Below are positions 8,425 to 23,487 of a DNA stretch of 38,430 bases, piece after piece (position 1 is the first letter of the stretch; each line of letters begins with the position of its first letter). The notes beneath the pieces were generated by a model. That model was not told where the DNA came from, made no database searches, and saw only the letters and a program-made list of their open reading frames with translations. The DNA is from Sulfuricurvum sp. (GTDB taxonomy: Bacteria > Campylobacterota > Campylobacteria > Campylobacterales > Sulfurimonadaceae). The translations under genes and the position numbers were made by a program. Location: contig NZ_JAEMQA010000101.1 in the NCBI RefSeq assembly GCF_022759005.1, forward strand, positions 1 through 38,430, in the 5' to 3' direction.

Positions 8425-9813
<1,389 letters not shown>

Positions 9814-9847
9814 TTAAATTCCGAAAGCTATTTGGACTTATAAATAA

Positions 9848-9864
9848 GACCCCCTAAAAGGGTC
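9848..9864 (-). promoter_or_regulatory. Small GC-rich hairpin in the thiC leader
   Basis: GACCC and GGGTC pair around a 7-base loop about 50 bases before the thiC start, followed on the minus strand by TTATTTATAAG. It could be an attenuation hairpin or only a weak structure. Nothing else was identified in the 215-base divergent region besides the ispDF promoter. Confidence 0.3.
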
Positions 9865-9980
9865 GTATCGCTTTTCATGTAAATTAAAAATTTCAAGAGG
9901 ATTTAGGAAAACTCTTCTCATCTCCCCTTGATGTGTTCTATAATTTATCGCAAACAAGATAAAAAAAAGCTTTTTAAGTG

Positions 9981-9986
9981 TATAAT
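9981..9986 (+). promoter_or_regulatory. -10 box of the ispDF operon
   Basis: TATAAT follows AAGTG and an A/T-rich tract. Transcription would begin about 25 bases before the TTG start of ispDF, leaving room for AGGA at 10007-10010. This placement argues against the upstream GTG start shown in the ORF track, which would overlap the promoter. Confidence 0.6.
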
Positions 9987-10016
9987 TTCGTAACAGTTTT
10001 CAAAATAGGATACATT

Positions 10017-11138
10017 TTGTCTGATTTTACCCTTGTTTTGCTTGCAGCAGGCAACTCAACCCGTTTTAAAGTTCCGGTAAAAAAACAATGGCTCCGTATC
10101 GGGCATGATCCTTTATGGTTTTATGTTACTAACCGTATCAAAGCCTCTATGGCCGATGTTCCTATTATTCTCGCCGCTCACCCCGATGAAATCCCATTTA
10201 TGCGTACTATGTGTGATTTTACGATCGTTGAGGGGGGCAGCACCCGACAGCAATCGCTCAAAAATGCCCTCAAAGAAGTTCATACCCCTTATGTCCTTGT
10301 AACAGATATTGCCCGTGCCTGTATCGATCCTTCACTGATTGAACGATTGCTCGCGTCCAAAGGTTCTGCCGATGTTATCGTTCCAGCATTAGACATTCAT
10401 GACACGGTTGTTTATGGAGATGCGACAATTGCGCGGGAGCAAGTCAAACGGATTCAAACACCGCAGCTTTCCCGCACCGATATTCTTCGAAATGCCTTAG
10501 AAACGGATGAAGAGTATACCGATGAGAGCAGTGCAATCGTCGCATTCGGAGGGACACGCCGATTTGTAAACGGCGATGAACGTGCAACCAAGATTACCCA
10601 TGCGGGCGATACGGCAGGGCTAGAGTGTCTTCTCCCCCCTTCAACCATGACATTTACCGGCAACGGATTTGATGTACACGGTTTCGAAGATAACAAACCC
10701 ATGGTACTCGGCGGGGTGAGCATCGATAGTCCCTTTGGGTTCAAAGCGCACAGTGACGGCGATGTCGCTATTCATGCCCTTATCGATGCACTGCTTGGAG
10801 CGGCATGCCTAGGAGACATCGGGATGCTTTTTCCCGATACGGATACAACATATAAAGATATCGATTCCAAAGAGTTATTGCGTCTATGTGTGCAAAAGCT
10901 TCACCATTTCGGGTTTGTGATTGCCCATGCCGATGTGACGATTATTGCGCAAACACCGAAAGTTGCCGCATACAAAAATGCGATGCGTCAAACATTGGCA
11001 TCAATCATGCTTATTCCTGCATCACGGGTCAATGTTAAAGCGACTACAACGGAACATTTGGGCTTTATCGGACGCAAAGAAGGAGTCGGCGTCTTGGCTA
11101 CAGCCTCAGTACACTATTTTGATTGGAAAAACGGATGA
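10017..11138 (+). CDS. ispDF: IspDF, bifunctional 2-C-methyl-D-erythritol 4-phosphate cytidylyltransferase / 2-C-methyl-D-erythritol 2,4-cyclodiphosphate synthase
   Basis: It catalyses two non-consecutive MEP-pathway steps for isoprenoid synthesis. The N-terminal IspD part has LVLLAAGNSTRF (CTP-binding) and HDTVVYGD. The C-terminal IspF part begins near GNGFDVHGF, with the metal-binding DVH pair, AHSDGDVAIHALIDALLGAA and FPDTD. The fusion is established for Campylobacterota and alphaproteobacteria. I choose TTG at 10017 (373 aa): AGGA sits 6 bases upstream and homologues begin at this SDFTLVLLAAG stretch. Its TGA overlaps the ATG of the next gene (ATGA), so the downstream regulator is translationally coupled. 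Confidence 0.96.
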   Translation: MSDFTLVLLAAGNSTRFKVPVKKQWLRIGHDPLWFYVTNRIKASMADVPIILAAHPDEIPFMRTMCDFTIVEGGSTRQQSLKNALKEVHTPYVLVTDIARACIDPSLIERLLASKGSADVIVPALDIHDTVVYGDATIAREQVKRIQTPQLSRTDILRNALETDEEYTDESSAIVAFGGTRRFVNGDERATKITHAGDTAGLECLLPPSTMTFTGNGFDVHGFEDNKPMVLGGVSIDSPFGFKAHSDGDVAIHALIDALLGAACLGDIGMLFPDTDTTYKDIDSKELLRLCVQKLHHFGFVIAHADVTIIAQTPKVAAYKNAMRQTLASIMLIPASRVNVKATTTEHLGFIGRKEGVGVLATASVHYFDWKNG

Positions 11139-12022
11139 ATATTCTCATTATCGAAAACGAAATTTACTTAGCGCAAAGTATCGCCTCCAAACTAAGCGAT
11201 CTAAGTCACAACTGCGATATTTCAAGCTCCACGAAAGAAGGTTTGCGCGGGTTGCCGTATGATGTCGTCCTCCTCTCGACCAATATTAGCGGTCAAGATA
11301 TTTATCCTGTCATCGAAGCGTATAAAGATGCCGTTGTTATCTTGATGGTCAGCTATGTGAGTAACGATACGGTATCCAAGCCTCTCGCCGCGGGAGCCAA
11401 AGACTATATTCTCAAACCCTTTATGATCGAAGAACTCATCCGTAAAATCCAACATTTTCAAAATCACGAACGTCTTCGCCGACAAAACCAAACGTATGAA
11501 CGTTACCTTACCCATACGTTTAATGCGATCAACGTGGATGAGGATTTAGACAAAACCGAGCTTCCCCTCTTCATCTGCAGCGGCTACCAAAAATATGCCG
11601 ACGCATTCGCATTCCGCTATGCGGCACACCACGATAAAACACTCCAATTCATTTCTCTTTCCTCCGCCAAAGCGTTCAGTGATATTGCGGCACAAAGTGA
11701 TGATTCCATTCTCTTTATCACCGATTTTCAAAATCTCAAAAAATCGGATCAGAAACCGTTTTACGAATTGATCGGCGGCAAAAAATGTATCGTTTCGAGC
11801 ACTGAACCGATCGATAACCCTCCATTCAAATTGATCGAGATTGAAAGCGACAATAACCTCTTCGACCAAGGTGAAATTTTACCGATTGAAGAGTATGTCA
11901 AATACATTATGATCCATTTCCAAAACCGCTTTCCGGATACCGAACTCTCCAAAAAATTAGGAATCTCACGCAAAAGCTTATGGGAAAAGAGAAAGAAATA
12001 TGGCATCGTCAAGAAAAAATAG
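11135..12022 (+). CDS. Atypical response-regulator-like protein: pseudo-receiver plus C-terminal Fis-type HTH
   Basis: The protein is 296 aa from the ATG overlapping the ispDF stop. The N-terminus folds like a receiver (MNILIIENE, then KDYILKPF with Lys94). The phospho-acceptor position reads YDVVLLSTN, so Ser48 replaces Asp, and the acidic pocket is Glu-Asn-Glu. The central part (about 140-255) has no Walker motifs but sits where an NtrC-type AAA+ domain would be. The last about 30 residues (ELSKKLGISRKSLWEKRKKYG) resemble the Fis-type helix-turn-helix of NtrC regulators. It looks like an NtrC-class regulator reduced to pseudo-receiver, remnant and HTH, unlikely to use canonical phosphorylation or to activate sigma-54. 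Its 3' end overlaps sat by 23 bases. Target genes are unknown. Confidence 0.75.
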   Translation: MNILIIENEIYLAQSIASKLSDLSHNCDISSSTKEGLRGLPYDVVLLSTNISGQDIYPVIEAYKDAVVILMVSYVSNDTVSKPLAAGAKDYILKPFMIEELIRKIQHFQNHERLRRQNQTYERYLTHTFNAINVDEDLDKTELPLFICSGYQKYADAFAFRYAAHHDKTLQFISLSSAKAFSDIAAQSDDSILFITDFQNLKKSDQKPFYELIGGKKCIVSSTEPIDNPPFKLIEIESDNNLFDQGEILPIEEYVKYIMIHFQNRFPDTELSKKLGISRKSLWEKRKKYGIVKKK

Positions 12023-13190
12023 AGCTCTTTTCATCGACCAAGAGGCGGTTTCCGCCCTCACATTGCTCAAAGCGGGGATGCTCAGTCCCGTAACGGCACT
12101 AATGAACGAAGCACAAAGCAAAGAGGTCCTTAGCAGCGGTATGTTCATGGGGAAAACCTTCCCGTTTCCTCTCATCCTCTCTCCGAGCGGGAAAGTCAAT
12201 GAAACCATTTTAACGACTGCCCAAAAAGGTGAGATTCTCGATCTGATTTGTGATGGCACTTTTATCGGAGAACTGTGTGTCGATGAAGTCTATCCTATCG
12301 ATCCGTGTGAACGGCTGCGCCAGATTTACGGCACCGAAGATCTCTCTCATCCGGGGGTCAGTGCGACCTATAAGCGTCTCGGAAAATACGCGATCTGCGG
12401 TGATTATTCGATTGATCTCTCTCCAATACAATCACTGCAAAACATGATTGCCGAAGCAAAAGAGCAAATCGGAGCCCAACATACAACGGCGATGTTTATG
12501 GCAGCCAATCCGCTTCATCGCGCACATGAACGCCTCATCCGACAAAGCTTGGAAAGAACTGATCTGATCGTCATCTTCTTGCATAAGCCCTACAATTCAG
12601 CCGATTTGAAATACGAGCTTCGCCATCAGGCACTCCAATATTTCATCGATAACTTCTTACCGTGCAACCGCGCCGTCATCGTACCGCTGGAGAGCAGCTA
12701 TATTTTTGCGGGAAGCAACGAAGTCATTCTCGATGCGATCGTCGCGAAAAACTACGGTTGCGATCGTCTGATGATCGGTCAAAATCATGCCGGAATCGGA
12801 ATGTACTACGATCACAATGCCAACAAGTCAATCGTGGATCGTCTCGTCGGAATCGATATCGAAGTAGGAATGTCCAGCGAATACGTCTATTGTAATCAAT
12901 GCAAAACACTCGTCAGCGTTCAAACCTGCCCTCACGGCCATCACCATCACATTTCTTATCATTCCGAATCGATCTTGGAGCTTATGCAGCAGGGGCTTCT
13001 CCCTCCGGCTGTTTTAGTGAGAAAAGAGATCTCTGCGATGATTGTCTCCTCACTCCATCCCAACCGATTCAAGAATCTCTCAAAGCTCTACTATGACATT
13101 ATGCCCGTCAAAGGTCTTCTCGAAGAGCACACCGAAAAAGATTTCTACGTCGAGCTCATGCGCTTATACCAAACAACATCTTTAAACTGA
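12000..13190 (+). CDS. ATP-sulfurylase (Sat)-like protein with altered sulfate-binding motif
   Basis: The 396 aa align along their length with dissimilatory-type ATP sulfurylase: N-terminal PUA-like part (LTLLKAGMLSPVTALMN), GTEDLSHPGVSATYKRLG, the nucleotidyl-transferase HRAHE motif (173-177), a GxxHAG loop and a C-terminal CNQC...CPHG zinc-type segment followed by SESILELMQQGLLPP. The family signature QTRNPxHRAHE reads FMAANPLHRAHE here (about 166-177), so the sulfate-contacting Gln and Arg are absent, and GRDHAG reads GQNHAG (260-265). The ATP-handling His residues remain. It is therefore a Sat homologue with doubtful activity on sulfate. It could be a nucleotidyltransferase with a different oxyanion or a divergent lineage. 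ATG at 12000, overlapping the upstream gene; followed 8 bases later by pgpA. Confidence 0.8.
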   Translation: MASSRKNRALFIDQEAVSALTLLKAGMLSPVTALMNEAQSKEVLSSGMFMGKTFPFPLILSPSGKVNETILTTAQKGEILDLICDGTFIGELCVDEVYPIDPCERLRQIYGTEDLSHPGVSATYKRLGKYAICGDYSIDLSPIQSLQNMIAEAKEQIGAQHTTAMFMAANPLHRAHERLIRQSLERTDLIVIFLHKPYNSADLKYELRHQALQYFIDNFLPCNRAVIVPLESSYIFAGSNEVILDAIVAKNYGCDRLMIGQNHAGIGMYYDHNANKSIVDRLVGIDIEVGMSSEYVYCNQCKTLVSVQTCPHGHHHHISYHSESILELMQQGLLPPAVLVRKEISAMIVSSLHPNRFKNLSKLYYDIMPVKGLLEEHTEKDFYVELMRLYQTTSLN

Positions 13191-13198
13191 GGAATTTA

Positions 13199-13708
13199 AT
13201 GAACTGGTTTTTTCTCACCGTCGGATACAGCGGTCTTTTTCCCAAAGCTCCCGGAACCATGGGAACGATCGCCGCGCTTCCTTTAGGCGTTGCAATTCTC
13301 CTCTACTTTGGACCGCAAACGCTGTTTATGGCAACCATTTTGATCACGCTGATCGCGATCAAAGCGATCGACAAACACGAAAGCATCGTCAATAAACATG
13401 ATGACAGTCGTATCGTTATCGATGAGCTGGTCGGAATGTGGTTCGCCCTCTCTATTGCACCCGGAATCAGATTTGATCTCACAGAGCTGATGGCATGGAC
13501 GAACGGTATCGCGCTTCAAATTGTGATGAGTTTTATCTTTTTTCGCCTCTACGACATCAAAAAACCCTCGATTATCGGTCGGATTGATCGCGAAACCAAA
13601 GGAGGGCTTGGAGTTATGGGTGATGATATCATTGCTGGATTTGCTGCCGGTATCTCCTCTGCAATTGTTTGGCAAATTCTCCTCAAAAGCGGATTACTCT
13701 TTTTATAA
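13199..13708 (+). CDS. pgpA: PgpA, phosphatidylglycerophosphatase A
   Basis: This inner-membrane enzyme dephosphorylates phosphatidylglycerol phosphate to phosphatidylglycerol. The 169 aa have the family motifs PKAPGTMGT near residue 16, DDSRIVIDELVGMW in the middle and MGDDIIAGFAAG near the C-terminus, with several hydrophobic segments. GAGGAA lies just before the ATG, and the gene follows the Sat-like gene by 8 bases as the last gene of the ispDF operon. The 149 bases after it contain a short TTCCC/GGGAA hairpin and no gene I can support. Confidence 0.93.
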   Translation: MNWFFLTVGYSGLFPKAPGTMGTIAALPLGVAILLYFGPQTLFMATILITLIAIKAIDKHESIVNKHDDSRIVIDELVGMWFALSIAPGIRFDLTELMAWTNGIALQIVMSFIFFRLYDIKKPSIIGRIDRETKGGLGVMGDDIIAGFAAGISSAIVWQILLKSGLLFL

Positions 13709-13857: not shown

Positions 13858-14349
13858 TTAAATCATCATGGGTTCATCAGTCGGTTCGATCTCTTCGAAA
13901 TCCAATACTATCTGATCCAATATTTTTTGCGTCTGTTTTATTTTATCAATGTTTTCATCAAAGATCCCCTTTGACGCCGGAAATGCTTCGGAAAGCTCTT
14001 GATAAATCAAAATACGTCCGCCGAAATGGCGATTGAATTCATCAAAGGCACGGCGCAGATACTCTTTTGAGGTCGTATGACGGAAAAGTGCTTTGATCAT
14101 TTTTTTACGCTCTTTGATCGGAATCGATTCATCGATCGCTTCAGCCACACGCTTGATGTCCAAACGAGACAAATAAGCACCGCAATGGTAAGGGGCTAAA
14201 AGTTTATCGGCCAGCTCTTCGACAAATCCGGGAACCGGTTCTTCGCCATTCTCATCCTCACTGTTTGTTTCACAACTTCCGGTATCGCATTTTTCGCGAA
14301 CAAATTGATCAAACTCAGCTCGCAGGGTGCTAAAATCGTTATCTTTCAT
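13858..14349 (-). CDS. Unknown acidic protein, last gene of the molybdoenzyme operon
   Basis: I do not recognise this 163-aa protein. It is acidic and soluble, without signal peptide or membrane segment. The N-terminal third has a C-x5-C pair (KCDTGSCE) followed by an acidic linker. The rest is predicted largely helical (VEELADKLLAPYHCGAYLSRLDIKRVAEAID). The start overlaps the upstream AroE-like gene by 11 bases, with GGAG upstream, so translation is coupled. The operon position suggests an accessory or maturation role for the molybdoenzyme, possibly a chaperone or metal-binding factor. That is inference from context only. Confidence 0.65.
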   Translation of the reverse strand: MKDNDFSTLRAEFDQFVREKCDTGSCETNSEDENGEEPVPGFVEELADKLLAPYHCGAYLSRLDIKRVAEAIDESIPIKERKKMIKALFRHTTSKEYLRRAFDEFNRHFGGRILIYQELSEAFPASKGIFDENIDKIKQTQKILDQIVLDFEEIEPTDEPMMI

Positions 14350-14788
14350 TCTTTTCTCCTCGTATTAAATCATAAAAATAGCGGCAATGTGAGCGCAACG
14401 CAATATCATCTGCAAAATCGTTACTCTCGGCATATCGCTCCAGCGCTTCTGGCATGATAAGTTCTCCGTTCAAACGCCCCTCTTCTATCCAAATCAGATC
14501 TACCAACCCTTGTTCTTTTGCATTTTCGGAAACCGAATCAACCAACGTTATCGCCTCTTCTTGATATTCCGAAGCGATAACTGCACCGCTGAGTTTTGAG
14601 CTGCGCATTTGAGAGAGGGTAAAAACAACATCATCACTCCGAATATTCATCGGAATAACCATGGCATTGACTCCGTTTTCTTTGAATAATTTGTTCACCG
14701 TCGATGAAAAACGGCTACTATGTGCCTCTTCGGCAATGTAGCCGAATAATCTGGTCTCTACCGTAATTGAATTATCGTTATTCATCAT
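14339..14788 (-). CDS. Stand-alone protein resembling the N-terminal (substrate-binding) domain of shikimate dehydrogenase AroE, catalytic residues lost
   Basis: The 149-aa protein shows an AroE-N-like progression: RLFGYIAEEAHSSRFSSTVN aligns with the xxFGxPIxHSxSPxIHN start of AroE. KLSGAVIASEYQEEAI aligns with the GxNVTxPxKEEA stretch, and WIEEGRLNGE aligns with the L..DGRLxGDNTDG end of the domain. The catalytic Lys is Gln here, the Asp of DNTDG is missing, and no Rossmann NADP domain follows. It cannot be a working shikimate dehydrogenase. The ATG overlaps the TGA of the polyferredoxin gene. A ligand-binding or assembly role in the molybdoenzyme operon is inferred. The fold assignment is by eye. 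Confidence 0.6.
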   Translation of the reverse strand: MMNNDNSITVETRLFGYIAEEAHSSRFSSTVNKLFKENGVNAMVIPMNIRSDDVVFTLSQMRSSKLSGAVIASEYQEEAITLVDSVSENAKEQGLVDLIWIEEGRLNGELIMPEALERYAESNDFADDIALRSHCRYFYDLIRGEKNER

Positions 14789-15882
14789 GAATTAAGCCCC
14801 CATAATTCCATCGCTTCCTCCTCTTCCAGTCGGCATCGTCGACAAATTTTTTCATCCCCGACCGAACTAAATATCAATCCGCATTCATCGCAACGGCGTA
14901 CCGAAAAAGTAATCATATTTTGAACGGTCGGTTCATACCACTCTTTGAGATTATATGAAGTGGATACGCTAAGTGCATCACTCTCACATACATCATGACA
15001 CAAATGGCATTTGACGCACAAAAACGGATCAAAATCGATTTTTGAACTGCGCATATCCGATGTCAAAGCGCCCGTAGGGCAAATGCGATAACAGAGTTCG
15101 CATGCCGTGCATTTTGACTCATCCATCAACTTTTGAGACGTAAAGGAGATCATCTGCGCATCCACCACGTGATATACGGAAGGTTTTTCAAACCTTTTTA
15201 ATGCGGTAAAAAAGAGTTTTCGCCGATCGGTAATCTTTTTCGTTCGTAACTCCTGCGTATGGCTGCTGTCTGTTGAATACGTCATAAACTCATCGGTACT
15301 CAGCCGTACCTCCCGCTCAAAATTTTCCTTGATGACACCGATTTTATTGAGACGAAACGTCTTGAAAAAATCGCGCCGATCTTTCTCCTCTTTTGCCTCT
15401 TCTGCCGTATATCCTTCACTCACCAAATCTACACGATAAGGTGATTCAATCGCTTCGAGTGCATAATTGACATTCTCAACACGCACCAGCATATCACGCA
15501 TCACTCTCTCACCGATAGAACATTCACTACAATGCCCGATATCGAGACGAAGAGCTTTTTTCATTCCACATAATGCAATAAGATGTTCACTTCCCAGAGC
15601 AGTGATGCAGGGAATATTTTTTTGACACGAGACCAGTGTTTCATTATCGGATAAAAATGAAAAGAAAAACTCGGTCGGGCTAAAATCATCCAATCCTAGC
15701 GCTTCAGTAGGGCACGATGCAACACATCCCGCACACCCGACACACATAGCTTGATTGATCGATGGTAAACGATCCGTGATAACAATCGCATCGGTAGGGC
15801 ACACCTTTGAACAGTGTGTACATGCTGAGTTAATGCTCAGAGCACGAACACATGAAGCAGGAGACAAACTAAGCAAACCCAT
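14785..15882 (-). CDS. Polyferredoxin-like protein with four [4Fe-4S] motifs and a C-terminal zinc-ribbon-like segment
   Basis: It is predicted to be a soluble electron carrier or assembly protein. From the ATG at 15882 it has 365 aa. Two ferredoxin motifs lie near residues 11-57, the first with its leading Cys displaced (C-x9-C-x2-C-x3-CP), the second regular (CVGCAGCVASCP). A middle region carries five further cysteines (86-121). A second ferredoxin pair (CTACELCYRICP, CVKCHLCHDVC) lies near 278-309. The C-terminus has C-x2-C...C-x2-C, like a zinc ribbon. The longer ORF to 15981 is rejected because its extra 33 residues overlap torD, whose stop is 7 bases upstream of 15882. No clear ribosome-binding site precedes the start, so coupling to torD is likely. 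Confidence 0.8.
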   Translation of the reverse strand: MGLLSLSPASCVRALSINSACTHCSKVCPTDAIVITDRLPSINQAMCVGCAGCVASCPTEALGLDDFSPTEFFFSFLSDNETLVSCQKNIPCITALGSEHLIALCGMKKALRLDIGHCSECSIGERVMRDMLVRVENVNYALEAIESPYRVDLVSEGYTAEEAKEEKDRRDFFKTFRLNKIGVIKENFEREVRLSTDEFMTYSTDSSHTQELRTKKITDRRKLFFTALKRFEKPSVYHVVDAQMISFTSQKLMDESKCTACELCYRICPTGALTSDMRSSKIDFDPFLCVKCHLCHDVCESDALSVSTSYNLKEWYEPTVQNMITFSVRRCDECGLIFSSVGDEKICRRCRLEEEEAMELWGLNS

Positions 15883-15889
15883 CGTCGTC

Positions 15890-16501
15890 TTATATCGCTT
15901 GAGAGAGAGTTTCGTTATCGCCAAGGATAAATTCGAGCGCTGTCTCAGCCGCGTCATAATAGAGCGGTGTACGTGCTTCATATTTCATATTGATCAGATA
16001 CATCGGAGCCCATTTGAGCAGATGGGTATTGAGGAAACGGTGCTGAACATTTTTGAGCTCTTTAACCGCTTCATCATCGTTGAGTTCCATCGCTTTACGC
16101 TGCGCTTCACACAAATGGTGCATAAATTCCAACTCAATGCCGATATGATCTGACGATACCACACGCGCTACTTCATAATCGACCAAAAAATCGTATGCAC
16201 TGTAAAAATCAGTCACAGGGTTTGCACCCCCTGTTTCGATCATCTGATCACTACGTGTATAAAACGTCTCATAGGGAACCAGATGCAAAATCGAAAGATT
16301 GACAAAATCAGGGTTCAAATGCCCTTCGATAATCTCTTTGTTGGAATGTTTTTTACGCACTTCCCATTCGCTCCAGTGAGGAAAAAATTCTAAAACAGTC
16401 GGATCGTTTTGCAAAGTTTCTAACAACGCTTCGTCAAGTTCTTGAAGCAATATTCGTGAAAGCAACGCATATATATTGCTTCGGGCAATGATCTCATCCA
16501 T
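15890..16501 (-). CDS. TorD/DmsD-family molybdoenzyme maturation chaperone
   Basis: The 203-aa helical, soluble protein has the TorD-family marks: YALLSRILLQELD near the N-terminus, PYETFYTRSDQ in the middle, then DHIGIELEFMHHL and a C-terminal LLKWAPMYLINM helix. Such chaperones bind the Tat signal and apo-form of a specific Mo/W-bisPGD enzyme until the cofactor is inserted. The partner here is clearly the catalytic subunit encoded 91 bases upstream. The gap between them holds a strong hairpin and a possible internal promoter (TACAAT at 16533-16538), so the chaperone level may be set separately from that of the enzyme. Confidence 0.88.
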   Translation of the reverse strand: MDEIIARSNIYALLSRILLQELDEALLETLQNDPTVLEFFPHWSEWEVRKKHSNKEIIEGHLNPDFVNLSILHLVPYETFYTRSDQMIETGGANPVTDFYSAYDFLVDYEVARVVSSDHIGIELEFMHHLCEAQRKAMELNDDEAVKELKNVQHRFLNTHLLKWAPMYLINMKYEARTPLYYDAAETALEFILGDNETLSQAI

Positions 16502-16540
16502 AACAGCTAGGCCTTTTAATTGTGATAGTAGGATTGTAGC

Positions 16541-16564
16541 CTAAAGGGCTGAAATGCCCTTTAG
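16541..16564 (-). promoter_or_regulatory. Perfect hairpin between catalytic subunit and torD genes
   Basis: CTAAAGGGC and GCCCTTTAG (9-base arms) enclose a 6-base loop. No U-tract follows on the minus strand, so it is not a classical terminator. It could stabilise the 3' end of the upstream message or partly terminate it. TACAAT immediately after it could restart transcription for torD. Confidence 0.55.
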
Positions 16565-16592
16565 AAGTCCCTATTAGAAAGAGAAGAGGAGG

Positions 16593-19500
16593 TTATCCTT
16601 TGATATTGACATCGTATGCCGATGGATCGAGTTTAACCCACGGACGGAAAATGTGTTTCGGTCTGCGTAGTTTAGAATTTGAATCCAAACCGCGTGAAAG
16701 TTTGTCTCTCCACGCTTGATACACTTTGAAGTTGTTTTCATAGTTGACATAAATGTCACCGATCTTATCGCCCGCTTGCGCAGGCTCTAACAATACTTTA
16801 TGGTGCCAACAGTGCATTCCCGATACCGGATCCGGATGAGCTGCCGCAACGGCATTTTGCCATGAACCGCTCAGACCATCCCACCAAACATTTTCAGAGT
16901 CACGGTTGTACTCTGGGAAACGTTCTGCTTTAAATCCTTTGATCCCCTCGACGTATTTGAGTTTACCCTCTTTACCGTCCATTTGAATCTCAGCAACCGG
17001 AACCCCGAAGCTATTAATACCGGTGGTACCGCTGTAATCATCAATGATACTTTGCCCACCCTCTTTACCGACGTTTGCAGGAGACTCTTTGAGAAACTCT
17101 TTATTGCTTAAATCACGAGGTGCGACGCCCGGAACGACTTTCCCATCAGTTACACCGTTAGGGATAGTTACATGGTTACTCAATTTCCAGCGTCCGCCGT
17201 GGTGAGAACACGCGAGTGTACCAGGAAGAACTCCCTCGGTCGGAACCGCCATAGCCACGAAGTGTCCGCTCTCCAGTCCTGAAACCGTATCGACAATTTT
17301 GACACGGATCGCATCACCGCGTTTGAATCCGAGACGTTGTGCATCTTTGGTCGAAATCCAAATCGGATCGTGGTTTTGAGAGATCTCCATCAAATGTTTC
17401 GAATTCGCAGAACGGGTATGAATGTTATACGGCAAACGGAATACCGTATTAAGGGCAAACGAGTTCTCCTCTTTCATATAGTAATGGTTGACGTGGGAGA
17501 GAATATGAACCATCTCCTCTTTCTCTTTATCGTTACGCGGATAGATTGCCATTGCGTATTCCGGCCATTTCCATTCTTTAGCTACCCATTGGGTATAGAC
17601 ATCAAGTTTACGGGTCGGAGTGGTATATCCTTGAAGTTTTTTGCCGTCAATTTGGATACCGATTTTTTTCGAGTTCCCTTTTTCATCGACCGCACTGATA
17701 ATACCAGCTCCATCAACGCTCATAGAGGCTGCATCGTATTTGTGTTCATACGATTCTACTTTGCCCTCTTCGATTTTGAGTTCACGCTCTTGTACATCAT
17801 AAACCTTATCCTCTTCTAGCCATGCACCGTGGTCACGCATATAGGAGTAGACAGGGAATTCCTCTTTGGTATAGCGCTCATCGTTCATAACTGTCTCGTA
17901 GAGTTTCGGCAAGTTGTCACCAAACGCCGCATCGTACCACTCTGCAATGGTAACCGGTTTGCCCGGATGACGTTTGGATTCCCACATCGTACGAATATTC
18001 AAGCTGCCGTCTGGATCAATAAATGAGTGAAGAAGCTCAAACCAGAACTCATTCTCTTCCCACACTTCTCCAAGTCCCGCTTTGATGTGTGCTTCGAGGG
18101 TTGCACGGTTAGGATTTTTAGGTTTCCAGCCTGATTTTTCGAGCGCCACACGTAAAACCGGCTGACGAAACGACGTCCAACGTGCAGGCATTGTCGCTTC
18201 GGAGTGTTGATCATGTCTCTCACCCGCAAGACCCACAGGGAGGACATAGTCCATGTACCAGTTGGTTTCTGACCATACCGGAGAGAGGTTAAAGGTGAGT
18301 TCCATTTTGGACTCATCTTTAAGCACCTCAATCCAGCGGAATCCGTCCGGATTAATCCAAACCGGATTGTACATACGCGGTGCATAGACTGACAATTTCG
18401 TCGGCACTTGCAATCCACGTGCAATCCATTTTTTCTGCCACTCCGTGTCAGTAAGAAGATGCGGTAATAAAAATGACATTTCATACGTCGAAAGAGGCCA
18501 TTCCGGCGGCCATGTCAACTCATTCCATACCTTAACAGACGGAACGTCTTTGCCCGATTTACCTTGACCAACCGTAGAGCTTCCCCCTTTACCGCCAACG
18601 GAAATATCATGCCAATGGTACCAACCGGTACCTCCAACATTTCCGATAGCTCCACGTAAACCGGCAAGGAACAATACTGATTTACCAGCCATCCAACCGC
18701 CTCGATTCCCCGCAGCCGTTGCACGCCAAATATAGGTAGAGATCGCGTCACCTGCCCAGATAAACATCTCATAGAGTTTTTCGAGTTTATATGCCGGAAT
18801 ATGGGTCTCTTTTTCGGTAAATTCAAGGGTATAAGGGGCATACATCTCTTTAAGCATCCCCAAGTAACTCTCGAAATCACGCCCTTCCGGAACTTTTGAA
18901 ATATAGTTTTTTTCAACCATATAATTCAGATAGTCGGTATCCTTCATCAACGTATCCCAGTTGAACCAACGTTTAACGAACGCTTTGTTTACCAAATTAT
19001 CGTTCAAAATGCGGCTTGCCAAATAGAGATAAATAGCCGATTCAGTACCCGGCCATGGTGCCAACCAAAGATCGGCAATCCCCGCTGAGTTAGAGAGGCG
19101 CGGATCCATTACAACCAATTTCGCACCTTTTTTACGAGCATCGGCAATCATTCCGGCAGCCTGTTGAAAATAGTGCCCTGCATCCGCAGCATGCGAAGAA
19201 TTTAAGAAAATAAGTTTCGCGTTTGCCCAGTCAGGACTGGTACGGTCATCATTTACGAAATGGATCGACGGTGTACGCCCGTTTGCTGAACAAATATTGG
19301 TATGGGAGTTGTATGAATCAATCCCCATAGATTCCCATACTTTAGGGACAAATCCGTTTTCATTCGGGCGACCAACATGGTACATACACAATTTTCGTGA
19401 AAGCGGATCACCTACGCGGAGAGTATCTCCCATTTTTTTACCGATAGTGGTCATCGCTTCATCCCACGTCGTACGGATCCATTTACCCTCACCGCGTTTT

Positions 19501-19988
19501 GAACCCGGCGCACGTTTAAGCGGGAACGGAATACGGTCAGGATCGTACATTTGCGATTGAACCGCGTACCCTTTGGCACAGTTACGACCGCGTGAACCCG
19601 GGTGTAATGGATTCCCCATGTATTTGCGTACGGTCAATGTTTTCTTATCAACCCATGCCGTCAATCCGCATGATGCTTCACAGTTCGAACATGCCGTCGG
19701 AATGACCATAAAATCGTGCACTAAAATACCGTCAGGATTCTCTTCACTACGGACGCCGTGACGACCAATACCGCCCCGTTTCCAATCGGTTCCGTCGAGT
19801 TCTTGGAAGTTATCCCATTGATCGAGCGGCGGATAAAACGATAAGGTATCGGGGGTATTGGTAAATTTGCTGGCTTTTACGGATTCAGCGGCAGCATCAA
19901 TCGAAAATACCCCTTTAGCGATTGCGGCACCCGCTACAGTGAGCGCGGTCCCTTTTAAAAATGTTCTTCTACTTTCTAAATACATCAT
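16593..19988 (-). CDS. Periplasmic Mo/W-bisPGD oxidoreductase catalytic subunit (CISM family, substrate unknown)
   Basis: The 1131-aa protein starts with a Tat signal (SRRTFLKG and a hydrophobic stretch rich in Ala/Gly), so it is exported folded. Cys100, 103, 107 and 137 (C-x2-C-x3-C-x29-C) bind the FS0 [4Fe-4S] cluster. NSHTNICSANGR around 227-238 matches the molybdenum-ligand region, with Cys233 the probable ligand. The MopB core follows (LFLAGLRGAIGNVGGTGW, PVWSETNWYMDYVLP), and the C-terminal dinucleotide-binding domain is at about 830-950 (LMEISQNHDPIWI, AMAVPTEG). Gene order Fe-S, NrfD-type, catalytic resembles ttrBCA and soe/psr-type clusters, and the length is closest to SoeA/TtrA. 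Sulfite, tetrathionate, polysulfide and arsenic substrates all remain possible, so no symbol is given. AGAGGT precedes the ATG. Confidence 0.9.
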   Translation of the reverse strand: MMYLESRRTFLKGTALTVAGAAIAKGVFSIDAAAESVKASKFTNTPDTLSFYPPLDQWDNFQELDGTDWKRGGIGRHGVRSEENPDGILVHDFMVIPTACSNCEASCGLTAWVDKKTLTVRKYMGNPLHPGSRGRNCAKGYAVQSQMYDPDRIPFPLKRAPGSKRGEGKWIRTTWDEAMTTIGKKMGDTLRVGDPLSRKLCMYHVGRPNENGFVPKVWESMGIDSYNSHTNICSANGRTPSIHFVNDDRTSPDWANAKLIFLNSSHAADAGHYFQQAAGMIADARKKGAKLVVMDPRLSNSAGIADLWLAPWPGTESAIYLYLASRILNDNLVNKAFVKRWFNWDTLMKDTDYLNYMVEKNYISKVPEGRDFESYLGMLKEMYAPYTLEFTEKETHIPAYKLEKLYEMFIWAGDAISTYIWRATAAGNRGGWMAGKSVLFLAGLRGAIGNVGGTGWYHWHDISVGGKGGSSTVGQGKSGKDVPSVKVWNELTWPPEWPLSTYEMSFLLPHLLTDTEWQKKWIARGLQVPTKLSVYAPRMYNPVWINPDGFRWIEVLKDESKMELTFNLSPVWSETNWYMDYVLPVGLAGERHDQHSEATMPARWTSFRQPVLRVALEKSGWKPKNPNRATLEAHIKAGLGEVWEENEFWFELLHSFIDPDGSLNIRTMWESKRHPGKPVTIAEWYDAAFGDNLPKLYETVMNDERYTKEEFPVYSYMRDHGAWLEEDKVYDVQERELKIEEGKVESYEHKYDAASMSVDGAGIISAVDEKGNSKKIGIQIDGKKLQGYTTPTRKLDVYTQWVAKEWKWPEYAMAIYPRNDKEKEEMVHILSHVNHYYMKEENSFALNTVFRLPYNIHTRSANSKHLMEISQNHDPIWISTKDAQRLGFKRGDAIRVKIVDTVSGLESGHFVAMAVPTEGVLPGTLACSHHGGRWKLSNHVTIPNGVTDGKVVPGVAPRDLSNKEFLKESPANVGKEGGQSIIDDYSGTTGINSFGVPVAEIQMDGKEGKLKYVEGIKGFKAERFPEYNRDSENVWWDGLSGSWQNAVAAAHPDPVSGMHCWHHKVLLEPAQAGDKIGDIYVNYENNFKVYQAWRDKLSRGLDSNSKLRRPKHIFRPWVKLDPSAYDVNIKG

Positions 19989-19998
19989 AATTTACCTC

Positions 19999-20898
19999 TT
20001 AGCTCATATTTAATAATTGTGGAATAACGAGCCAAACGTGTTTGCTCACCCACAAACCGACCAATGCCGATACGGCTGCGATTTTTAACAAATAATACGA
20101 TTTGTTTTTCAAACTTAAGCATACGAGAGCCATAGGAATCAAGAACGCCAGAACTTGTCCAATCCAGAACATCGCGGTGTATTCGCCCCCTTTTACAAAC
20201 GCTAATGTCGCGGCGACCTCTTCGGCTTTCATTCCGCCGAAGATATACTCTGACATATAGAGAATAAACGCTGCCGCTGCACTAAAGCCGAGTACTAGCG
20301 CCAAATCTTTTTTGACCGCTTCAGAAAATTTATTGCCACCGAGGAGAAGCATCGTTGCCGATCCCGCAAGGAGCGCTGCCAAAATCATTTGTGCCGATTC
20401 GGTAGGCATTTGCCACAACTCACGCGCTGTTGCTTCTGCCATTAAACCTGCGGTGTACAATGTGACCGGAATCGCCAACAATGTCGTCCATCCGAGCAAC
20501 TTATCGTACATCGCTTCGTCTTTTTTCATGTAGATTGCATACGTCATCGCCAAAAGAAGTCCGACAAATCCTGTTGCCATCCATGCACCGATCGTAATCG
20601 CCGACGTCAAGTGCGGATAGAAGAAAATGTGCCAAAAACGGAACATTTGGTGCAAATCGATGACCGTAAAGAACAAGAAAAGGTGAATGAATACAATCGA
20701 AATCACCACTGCAGGGAACCGGATAAAGCCGGTTTGTTCCGGATACTTTTTCAACAAAAAGAACGTGAGGAAAATGATACCAGTACCGACACTTTTTGCC
20801 CACATATTCATTGTAATAATCCAGCCCCAAAATACGCTAGGAAGAGCAACGTCAAGGACTACGATCGCATTGGTTGCCGCAAGTGTTTCGTGTACCAT
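19999..20898 (-). CDS. NrfD/PsrC-type integral membrane subunit (quinone-interacting anchor)
   Basis: The 299-aa protein has about eight hydrophobic membrane segments. The N-terminal part (WGWIITMNMWAKSVGTG) and the overall length fit the NrfD/PsrC/DmsC family, which carries electrons between the quinone pool and the periplasmic Fe-S/molybdenum subunits without heme. Its ATG overlaps the stop of the Fe-S subunit (TAATG) and its stop lies 10 bases before the catalytic gene, consistent with a three-subunit membrane complex. Confidence 0.92.
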   Translation of the reverse strand: MVHETLAATNAIVVLDVALPSVFWGWIITMNMWAKSVGTGIIFLTFFLLKKYPEQTGFIRFPAVVISIVFIHLFLFFTVIDLHQMFRFWHIFFYPHLTSAITIGAWMATGFVGLLLAMTYAIYMKKDEAMYDKLLGWTTLLAIPVTLYTAGLMAEATARELWQMPTESAQMILAALLAGSATMLLLGGNKFSEAVKKDLALVLGFSAAAAFILYMSEYIFGGMKAEEVAATLAFVKGGEYTAMFWIGQVLAFLIPMALVCLSLKNKSYYLLKIAAVSALVGLWVSKHVWLVIPQLLNMS

Positions 20899-21536
20899 TA
20901 GTGATGTCCTCCTAAATGGATATGGGTAAGGTTGTTAAATAGGTTGTGCCCTTCTCCACGGAATGATGCCAGTGGGTTAAGTTGAACGTTACCGCCGCCG
21001 ACATAGAAGTGGTGAGGGTCAGTCCCTTTTTCAGGTTTACGTACTTGTACGTCACCTTGGTGTTGTTGAATATATTTGCTGATATTCGAGGTAGGATCAT
21101 CCAAATCACCGAAAATATTGGCTTCAACCGGACATGCTACGACACATGATGGCATCATGCTGCTTGCAATACGGTGTGCACAATAAGTACATTTGTCTGC
21201 CGTTTGAGTTTGTGGATCGATGTAGATCGCACCGTAAGGACATGCCATTACACATCCCGCACATCCGATACAACGCTCTTTATCGATATTCACAATACCG
21301 TTTTCGAGATAATGCAATGCACTAACCGGACAAATGCGTTCACACGGTGCATTAGCACAGTGATTACATCGAAGCGGAGTAAACGTCCGTTTTGTCTCAG
21401 GGAATGCTCCCACATCAACATATTTAACACGTAGTCGCCATGTACTAAGTGGAACTTCGTTTTCCACTTTGCACGCGATCTCACAGCCCTTACACCCCAT
21501 ACAGAGGTGAAGGTCCACCAAGAAACCTAACTGCAT
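20898..21536 (-). CDS. Four-cluster ferredoxin subunit (PsrB/DmsB/SoeB type) of the molybdoenzyme
   Basis: The 212-aa electron-transfer subunit has four cysteine groups: CMGCKGCEIAC near the N-terminus, CNHCANAPCERICP, CIGCAGCVMACP and CTYCAHRIASSMMPSCVVACP. That is the pattern for four [4Fe-4S] clusters in the DmsB/PsrB family. There is no signal peptide, so it would leave the cell with the Tat-dependent catalytic partner. The C-terminal tail is rich in His and Gly (LTHIHLGGHH). It is the first gene of the operon, with AAGGAG before the ATG and palindromic and direct-repeat elements upstream. Confidence 0.93.
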   Translation of the reverse strand: MQLGFLVDLHLCMGCKGCEIACKVENEVPLSTWRLRVKYVDVGAFPETKRTFTPLRCNHCANAPCERICPVSALHYLENGIVNIDKERCIGCAGCVMACPYGAIYIDPQTQTADKCTYCAHRIASSMMPSCVVACPVEANIFGDLDDPTSNISKYIQQHQGDVQVRKPEKGTDPHHFYVGGGNVQLNPLASFRGEGHNLFNNLTHIHLGGHH

Positions 21537-21725: not shown

Positions 21726-21755
21726 AAAAATAAACTCTCACCATTAGAGAGTTTA
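21726..21755 (-). terminator. Rho-independent terminator after hisD
   Basis: TAAACTCTC and GAGAGTTTA (9-base arms) flank a 7-base loop starting 15 bases after the hisD stop. On the minus strand the stem is followed by a T-rich ATTTTTA tract. Confidence 0.75.
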
Positions 21756-23073: not shown

Positions 23074-23487
23074 TTATTTTTGCGGCGTGTTGGTTTTATA
23101 TTCTTGCTTAACAATCTCAAGCGCTTTTAAAAACTCATCGCTCTCGATAGCCCCCATAATCGGTTCAAACATCGGCGTTCTCTCTTTTATAAACCATGTT
23201 GCCGGTGTCCCCTGAGTCATAAGCGACGGCGGAACGCTCCCTTCATCCACTACCCCTTCGTAACTTACGAAATCACGGTTCAATACGGCAACAACTTTTT
23301 GGTTTTTAAGTGTCTTTTGCTTGAGGACATCACACCATCGGCATCCGTTTTTGGTCACCAGTACCATTAAAGGTTTTTTCTCTTTGATAGAGCGTTCAAC
23401 AGCCGAAGAAATATTCTTTTCCCATTTAACCTCTGCCGCATACAATGAGATCATTGATAGCGCAAGCAACCATAGTATTTTTATCAT
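23074..23487 (-). CDS. Periplasmic thioredoxin-fold protein with CRWC motif
   Basis: The 137-aa protein has a signal peptide (MIKILWLLALSMISLYAA). It carries a thioredoxin-like fold with the active-site pair C-R-W-C (NGCRWCDVLK) and a cis-Pro segment GTPATWF. Proteins of this size and motif in Campylobacterota resemble SoxW/DUF255-like thiol oxidoreductases that act on periplasmic disulfides, for example in cytochrome c or sulfur-oxidation pathways. The partner is not identifiable here. Its ATG overlaps the aroK stop by four bases. Confidence 0.82.
   Translation of the reverse strand: MIKILWLLALSMISLYAAEVKWEKNISSAVERSIKEKKPLMVLVTKNGCRWCDVLKQKTLKNQKVVAVLNRDFVSYEGVVDEGSVPPSLMTQGTPATWFIKERTPMFEPIMGAIESDEFLKALEIVKQEYKTNTPQK

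Follow-up and report, generated by a model that had tools for sequence, protein, structure and literature searches.

A block of seven genes in a 38,430-nucleotide stretch of DNA from Sulfuricurvum sp. (contig NZ_JAEMQA010000101.1; the whole stretch is called the window) raises the question of which substrate is served by an exported molybdoenzyme and what the genes beside it contribute. An earlier note, made from the sequence alone, had described seven genes for a periplasmic, Tat-exported CISM enzyme of unassigned substrate with three accessory genes absent from textbook operons. Coordinates and Pfam domains agreed with this description, as did the view that the three genes are foreign to the textbook operons.

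Organization of the gene block

The genes were verified in the order B-C-A-D-E-G-F (Table 1), and the start of E was the sole correction. As first called, the E open reading frame had 398 aa and a 92-base overlap with D. The E proteins of relatives are approximately 355-390 aa and begin at an ATG equivalent to window position 15882, and the start of E therefore needs correcting to that position, which leaves a D-E gap of 7 bases. The spacing between A and D is exactly 91 bases. The transcription unit probably begins with B because a terminator-like hairpin separates this gene from hisD, although the hairpin (21755-21731) is a consensus match in a region where the count of terminator-like matches was about the shuffle mean. 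The B-C-A-D-E-G-F order was found repeatedly across many families of the order and a chance arrangement is therefore excluded.

Table 1. Features of the gene block, in window coordinates
Feature	Position	Strand	Product	Evidence
B	20898..21536	-	Fe-S electron-transfer subunit, 212 aa	Fer4_11 1.5e-21 (Pfam)
C	19999..20898	-	NrfD-type membrane anchor, 299 aa	NrfD 5.6e-13 (Pfam)
A	16593..19988	-	catalytic molybdopterin subunit, 1131 aa	Molybdopterin, Fe4S4, Molydop_binding (Pfam)
D	15890..16501	-	TorD-family chaperone, 203 aa	Nitrate_red_del 7.4e-16 (Pfam)
E	14785..15882	-	polyferredoxin, ArxB2 family, 365 aa from corrected start	Fer4 repeats (Pfam)
G	14339..14788	-	shikimate-dehydrogenase-like, N-terminal domain alone	Shikimate_dh_N 7.5e-8 (Pfam)
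F	13858..14349	-	acidic protein, 163 aa	C-terminal domain of TorD-F fused chaperones; no Pfam match
Terminator-like hairpin, between hisD and B	21731..21755	-		consensus scan only

Catalytic subunit and its relatives

The N-terminus of A carries the Tat motif SRRTFLKG, followed by an Fe-S motif around residue 100 and by HTNICS, in which Cys233 is the candidate Mo ligand. B is without its own signal peptide and is 75-97% identical to its counterparts in relatives. A scored below the cut-off of every NCBIfam model, including those for TtrA of the tetrathionate reductase TtrABC (52 bits against 1750), PhsA of the thiosulfate/polysulfide reductases PhsA/PsrA (126.6 against 694) and ArrA (69.9 against 1600). 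The affinity to TtrA suggested in the earlier note was not borne out by this weak match, although the closest NCBIfam likenesses of B and C were TtrB and TtrC, the TtrB model being the top one for B at 203.6 bits, under its cut-off of 416. A Cereibacter ArxA-type sequence was placed outside the clade of A in a tree with long branches.

The Campylobacterota A sequences formed a single clade (support 100), and the sister of this clade was a large group of cytoplasmic enzymes. The two grouped together apart from other CISM enzymes, with a support of 100 for their union. A was not placed within any characterised clade whose operons contain the same accessory genes, the placement that the earlier note had set against its own proposal. 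The cytoplasmic relatives lacked the Tat motif in all 77 loci and usually consist of two genes, one encoding a fused Fe-S/NrfD protein (B-C) and the other the catalytic subunit. A Chlorobium system in this sister clade has the two-gene make-up published for PSRLC3 (PMC5473276), and we infer from that make-up, rather than from accessions, that the Chlorobium loci are PSRLC3. The PSRLC3 system has been called an alternative sulfite-oxidising system, itself a proposal (PMC6338057). The window block and these relatives share a catalytic subunit that is collinear over almost its full length (35-38% identity to the window A in plasmid-borne members), the B and C domains, and conserved HTN-[IV]-CS and Fe-S motifs. 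The relatives differ in being cytoplasmic with B and C fused, in lacking E and G, in rarely having a chaperone gene and in adjoining sulfur genes. The fused two-gene cytoplasmic arrangement was not found for A, B and C, which are encoded by three separate genes, with a Tat motif on A, and were therefore regarded as a relative of PSRLC3 and not filed as a member.

The sulfur-gene share of the open reading frames beside the cytoplasmic relatives was 20%, 10%, 4.5% and 3% in successive 2-kb bins outward. At least one sulfur gene was located within 6 kb at 39 of the 77 loci, including MBL-rhodanese (26) and SulP (21) genes. Persulfide dioxygenase and sulfate permease genes are among the neighbors, and DsrE, TusA, YedE, SQR-like and TauE genes were also present. 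There were no sulfur genes inside the Campylobacterota operon itself. The earlier note had also leaned toward a Soe-like enzyme, and this leaning gained support from the kinship of A to a cytoplasmic clade of the sulfite-oxidation type. By description, SoeABC of Allochromatium and Aquifex resembles the block in the reaction proposed here and in being an NrfD-anchored molybdoenzyme (PMC8076601), while its catalytic side is reported to be cytoplasmic. An approximate SoeA query matched arx and other enzymes and yielded no verifiable SoeA.

A different periplasmic sulfur compound could be the substrate, with polysulfide, thiosulfate or tetrathionate being reduced or oxidised during respiration or disproportionation as in Psr, Phs or Ttr enzymes. 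These bacteria carry many Psr-like genes, whose substrates are not readable from sequence (PMC8359478), some Campylobacterota can disproportionate sulfur without a known pathway, and the likeness of B and C to TtrB and TtrC points the same way. We regard this as rather unlikely, though a serious contender, as A is far under the PhsA, TtrA, DmsA and ArrA cut-offs and its nearest kin outside the phylum occur in oxidative, sulfite-producing contexts.

Distribution and co-inheritance

A was present in 131 of the 137 good genomes of the family Sulfurimonadaceae and, across the order Campylobacterales, in 108 of 299 genomes. E was detected in 98 of the 108 A-positive genomes versus 3 of 190 A-negative genomes, and F in 99 versus 2 of the same sets. 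E and F follow A even when D-E-G-F is unlinked from B-C-A and kept as a cluster of its own. A second Tat-exported enzyme in Campylobacterota, which is type-II-like, is also accompanied by paralogues of E and F. The association of SoxB with A was loose (50 of the 108 A-positive genomes) and no SoxB was seen in the source genome. A literature search by locus tag for a Sulfurimonas denitrificans match returned no paper.

Accessory proteins

E contains four 4Fe-4S motifs, a further Cys group in its middle part and a CxxC..CxxC site at the C-terminus, and is without a signal peptide and cytosolic. Comparison with the ArxB2 profile by hhalign gave a probability of 99.9% and an E-value of 1.5e-36, and 23 Cys columns were common to at least 9 of 11 aligned sequences. 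The homology was full-length with the Cys pattern kept, which places E in the ArxB2 family. The role of ArxB2 has been described as unclear and its gene as seemingly confined to arx (PMC6549141). The operon arxB2ABCD, encoding an anaerobic arsenite oxidase, resembles the window block in its Tat-exported A, B, NrfD anchor, TorD chaperone and E homologue (PMC6549141) and differs in catalytic clade and substrate, and no F or G homologue was found there at 1e-5.

This membership of E, together with the location of the Azoarcus relative of A near arsenic genes, would suit an enzyme for arsenic or selenium oxyanions. Such a function is very improbable given the ArrA score (70 bits against 1600), the position of the ArxA-type sequence outside the clade of A, and the near-universal presence of A in the family of the source genome, which ill suits an arsenic niche.

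E homologues go with the Tat-exported enzymes ArxA, the Azoarcus enzyme and the type-II-like enzyme of Campylobacterota. There was no clear homologue beside the cytoplasmic relatives, where the inspected matches of approximately 24-30 bits were at the level of generic Fe-S subunits, and E-model matches at 25-30 bits were judged to be the Fe-S subunits of those loci. The earlier note had allowed either a maturation role or a second electron route for the polyferredoxin, and our analysis favors maturation because E and F track A also in those genomes in which D-E-G-F and B-C-A lie apart. The 4Fe-4S motifs, the conserved cysteines and the missing signal peptide would be compatible with E carrying electrons to or from the cytosol. 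This is improbable, however, as A and B lie across the membrane from E, D and F share its cassette, its homologues accompany other exported enzymes, and none is evident next to the cytoplasmic relatives, which would be directly accessible to a soluble ferredoxin.

F matched TorD-F fused proteins at 2.6e-10 and the reverse search gave 3.9e-17, while the D proteins of relatives matched the first half of the fused model. On the 366 positions representing six fused proteins, D covers approximately 90-220 and F approximately 237-359. These matches identify F as the second half of a TorD-F chaperone, here encoded separately, and so as part of a TorD chaperone system. TorD-F is a single protein in some cytoplasmic relatives and adjoins six of them, and is therefore not strictly tied to export. 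D belongs by Pfam to the TorD/DmsD/NarJ chaperones (REMPs), from which the block differs in that the role appears to be shared by D and F and in that the F domain has no Pfam family. The description of the accessory genes as unusual was thus only half right, failing for E as an ArxB2 homologue and for F as part of a chaperone system.

Two-domain relatives of G occur elsewhere, and G is truncated in the source genus, the window protein being without the Rossmann (NADP) domain. Alignment with the true AroE, which is encoded elsewhere in the genome, showed that the catalytic Lys and Asp positions are not conserved, so that G was rejected as a shikimate dehydrogenase. Single-sequence structure predictions of F and G had mean pLDDT values of 59 and 51 and gave no significant PDB fold match.

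Proposed function

With moderate confidence, the block is read as encoding a periplasmic NrfD-anchored molybdoenzyme that oxidises sulfite or a close sulfur substrate, together with D, E and F for the cytosolic assembly of A. The sequences themselves establish the gene order, the export motif, the kinships, the separation of D from F, the homology between E and ArxB2 and the co-inheritance. For the substrate, the direction of electron flow and the exact jobs of D, E, F and G, we infer the following. In the periplasm, A would oxidise sulfite to sulfate, or would do so with a near relative of sulfite that is likewise partly oxidised, and the electrons would pass via B to menaquinone at C. A-B-C would thus be a Tat-exported counterpart of the PSRLC3-type systems, which have two genes and are cytoplasmic. 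The assembly of A before export would fall to D, E and F in the cytosol. D and F may together make up a single TorD-type chaperone encoded by two genes, E may take part in building or checking the Fe-S and Mo cofactors, and G is a putative non-catalytic helper. Several points count against the sulfite reading: the Campylobacterota operon contains no sulfur genes, the association with SoxB is loose, and SorAB has also been named as a sulfite enzyme of Campylobacterota (PMC9948710).

As a more tentative extension, D, E and F could represent cytosolic assembly machinery that serves exported molybdoenzymes in general, in which polyferredoxins of the ArxB2 type donate or proofread Fe-S clusters and F supplies a missing half of TorD. 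Its most widespread use would then be in a core, hitherto unrecognised periplasmic sulfite:menaquinone oxidoreductase of sulfur-oxidising Campylobacterota, with the cytoplasmic sisters facing the other side of the membrane.

The block encodes a respiratory enzyme present in nearly all of the family, for which a function assignment was not found in the literature searched. E shows that the ArxB2 family is wider than arx and points to an assembly role, and F is a new domain for the study of TorD chaperones. The sister clades differ in export and so offer a natural test of how enzymes switch membrane side, and a concrete, testable substrate would bear on sulfite handling and on the routes of sulfur disproportionation in these bacteria.

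Block layout and gene calls

Coordinates and Pfam matches bore out the gene content claimed in the earlier note, with seven genes in the order B-C-A-D-E-G-F. The longest open reading frame of the polyferredoxin gene E begins within D and the start in relatives corresponds to window position 15882, so E was called from that position with a 7-base gap. A terminator-like hairpin located between hisD and B suggests that the block may form its own transcription unit, with such matches in the region being near chance level. The sulfate adenylyltransferase gene and pgpA adjoin the block, a place kept in several families, and the former scored below the NCBIfam cut-offs. A small protein gene between aroK and hisD also had a conserved position upstream of the block.

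Genes of the block and neighbouring features in the window
Feature	Description	Strand	Window position
B	Fe-S subunit	minus	
C	NrfD anchor	minus	
A	catalytic subunit, 1131 aa, Tat motif	minus	
D	TorD chaperone	minus	
E	polyferredoxin, 365 aa	minus	start at 15882
G	AroE-N-like protein	minus	
F	acidic protein, 163 aa	minus	
Sulfate adenylyltransferase gene and pgpA	the former divergent		12000-13708
Small protein	137 aa, without strong family match		23074-23487

Distribution and co-inheritance

The catalytic subunit A was present in 179 of 200 Sulfurimonadaceae genomes, with 131 hits among the 137 of good quality. Across the Campylobacterales, 108 of 299 genomes, representing 28 of 81 genera, had it. 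The order B-C-A-D-E-G-F was kept in most family genomes examined, usually downstream of hisD, and blocks of other families had the same order or B-C-A alone. Among approximately 298 genomes of the order, E was found at high score in 98/108 A-positive and 3/190 A-negative genomes, and F in 99/108 and 2/190, respectively. Fisher's p values of 1e-62 and below overstate these associations as the genomes are related. A better argument for a functional tie to A is that two genomes of one genus carried D-E-G-F away from B-C-A, in a separate cluster adjoining pgpA and sat. SoxB was weakly associated with A (50/108 A-positive and 46/190 A-negative genomes).

Two length classes of A, about 1131 and 1090 aa, occurred inside one genus and differed around residues 944-989. 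In a Sulfurovum mangrovi plasmid record the A gene lies in two frames (9139-10014 and 10028-12169), reflecting either mutation or sequencing error, and the other block genes look intact.

Family placement of the catalytic subunit

A scored under the cut-off of every NCBIfam model matched, including PhsA (127 vs 694 bits), DmsA/YnfE (126 vs 778), ArrA (70 vs 1600) and TtrA (52 vs 1750), except a generic Tat-signal model matched at threshold. The best solved structure was of the Thermus polysulfide reductase type (8e-32, a quarter of the length covered). Collinear relatives with 35-38% identity were identified by tblastn of plasmids in Thermomicrobium, Rhodococcus jostii RHA1 and haloarchaea, and a genome scan gave at least 580 stretches encoding group members; the 80 best of these, spanning many phyla, were retained. 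None of 77 relatives outside the phylum had a Tat motif and most had B and C fused into one protein; these relatives look cytoplasmic.

A was placed in a tree with DmsA, FdnG, NapA, an ArxA-type and other enzymes as comparators. Campylobacterota sequences formed one clade (support 100), sister to a clade of the cytoplasmic relatives (support 89), and the two were united with support 100. The Azoarcus KH32C enzyme branched next outside (support 87), where the branching order is unsure due to long outgroup branches and the quick search mode used.

Gene context of the cytoplasmic relatives and proposed substrate

Neighbouring genes at the 77 cytoplasmic-relative loci were clustered and their domains checked by Pfam, which upheld them except for an SQR-like call that was a generic Pyr_redox_2 match. 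MBL-fold-rhodanese proteins of the persulfide dioxygenase type were present at 26 loci and SulP permeases at 21, with YedE, DsrE, TusA, rhodanese, SQR-like and TauE genes in smaller numbers. At least one sulfur gene lay inside 6 kb at 39/77 loci, and as an internal control the sulfur-gene share of ORFs was 20% within 2 kb and dropped to 3% at 6-8 kb. Such neighbours, with a dioxygenase that yields sulfite and a carrier for sulfate or sulfite, fit an enzyme that oxidises sulfite to sulfate.

The Chlorobium loci consist of two genes and match in this make-up that reported for PSRLC3 (PMC5473276); elsewhere PSRLC3 is presented as an alternative system for sulfite oxidation (PMC6338057). In Aquifex and Allochromatium, SoeABC is reported to convert sulfite to sulfate and is placed on the cytoplasmic side (PMC8076601). 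No sulfur genes were located inside the Campylobacterota block, and sulfite as the putative substrate of A is suggested by kinship and by the gene context of the sister clade, itself only a proposed sulfite oxidiser.

Accessory proteins and a probable maturation role

F matched no Pfam family, and its profile hit TorD-like proteins in their C-terminal portion (best 2.6e-10), these being encoded next to cytoplasmic relatives. Six such TorD-F fusion proteins were gathered, five encoded directly downstream of A, and in a model built from them D proteins matched one half and F proteins the other. In many relatives G has both domains of a shikimate-dehydrogenase-like protein, and in the window's genus it has the first domain only; the Lys of NVTxPHK and the Asp of NTDADG positions were unconserved and the true AroE is encoded elsewhere in the genome.

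By blastp (5e-24 to 7e-14), E was homologous over its full length to the arx polyferredoxins of Sulfuricella and Cereibacter and to that of the Azoarcus operon, and profile comparison with the arx type gave 1.5e-36. The corresponding gene arxB2 has been described as apparently arx-specific with an unclear role (PMC6549141). Exported enzymes of several kinds had an E homologue nearby, and no clear homologue adjoined the cytoplasmic relatives of A. The Azoarcus KH32C operon has more small unknown genes by TorD and the E homologue, at 11428-13036 and 14163-14561.

Paralogues of E and F also lie beside a second Tat-exported enzyme in genomes of the order, including the window's own. This second operon (loci L213 on C93 and L214 on C84, also L210 and L212), annotated by reading the sequence rather than by family search, includes a rhodanese-like gene, and the F paralogue is adjoined by genes for TorD and for an Mrp-like Fe-S carrier. 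The enzyme looks type-II-like, judging from its beta subunit.

The earlier note had considered either maturation or a second electron route for the polyferredoxin. A mature periplasmic enzyme is out of reach of a cytosolic ferredoxin, which argues against the electron route, so the simpler reading is maturation, in which E would act on A in the cytosol ahead of Tat export. In Rhodococcus and Natrinema, which have the cytoplasmic form, an Mrp/NBP35 gene immediately follows A, and these genes point to Fe-S insertion as a step that may need help.
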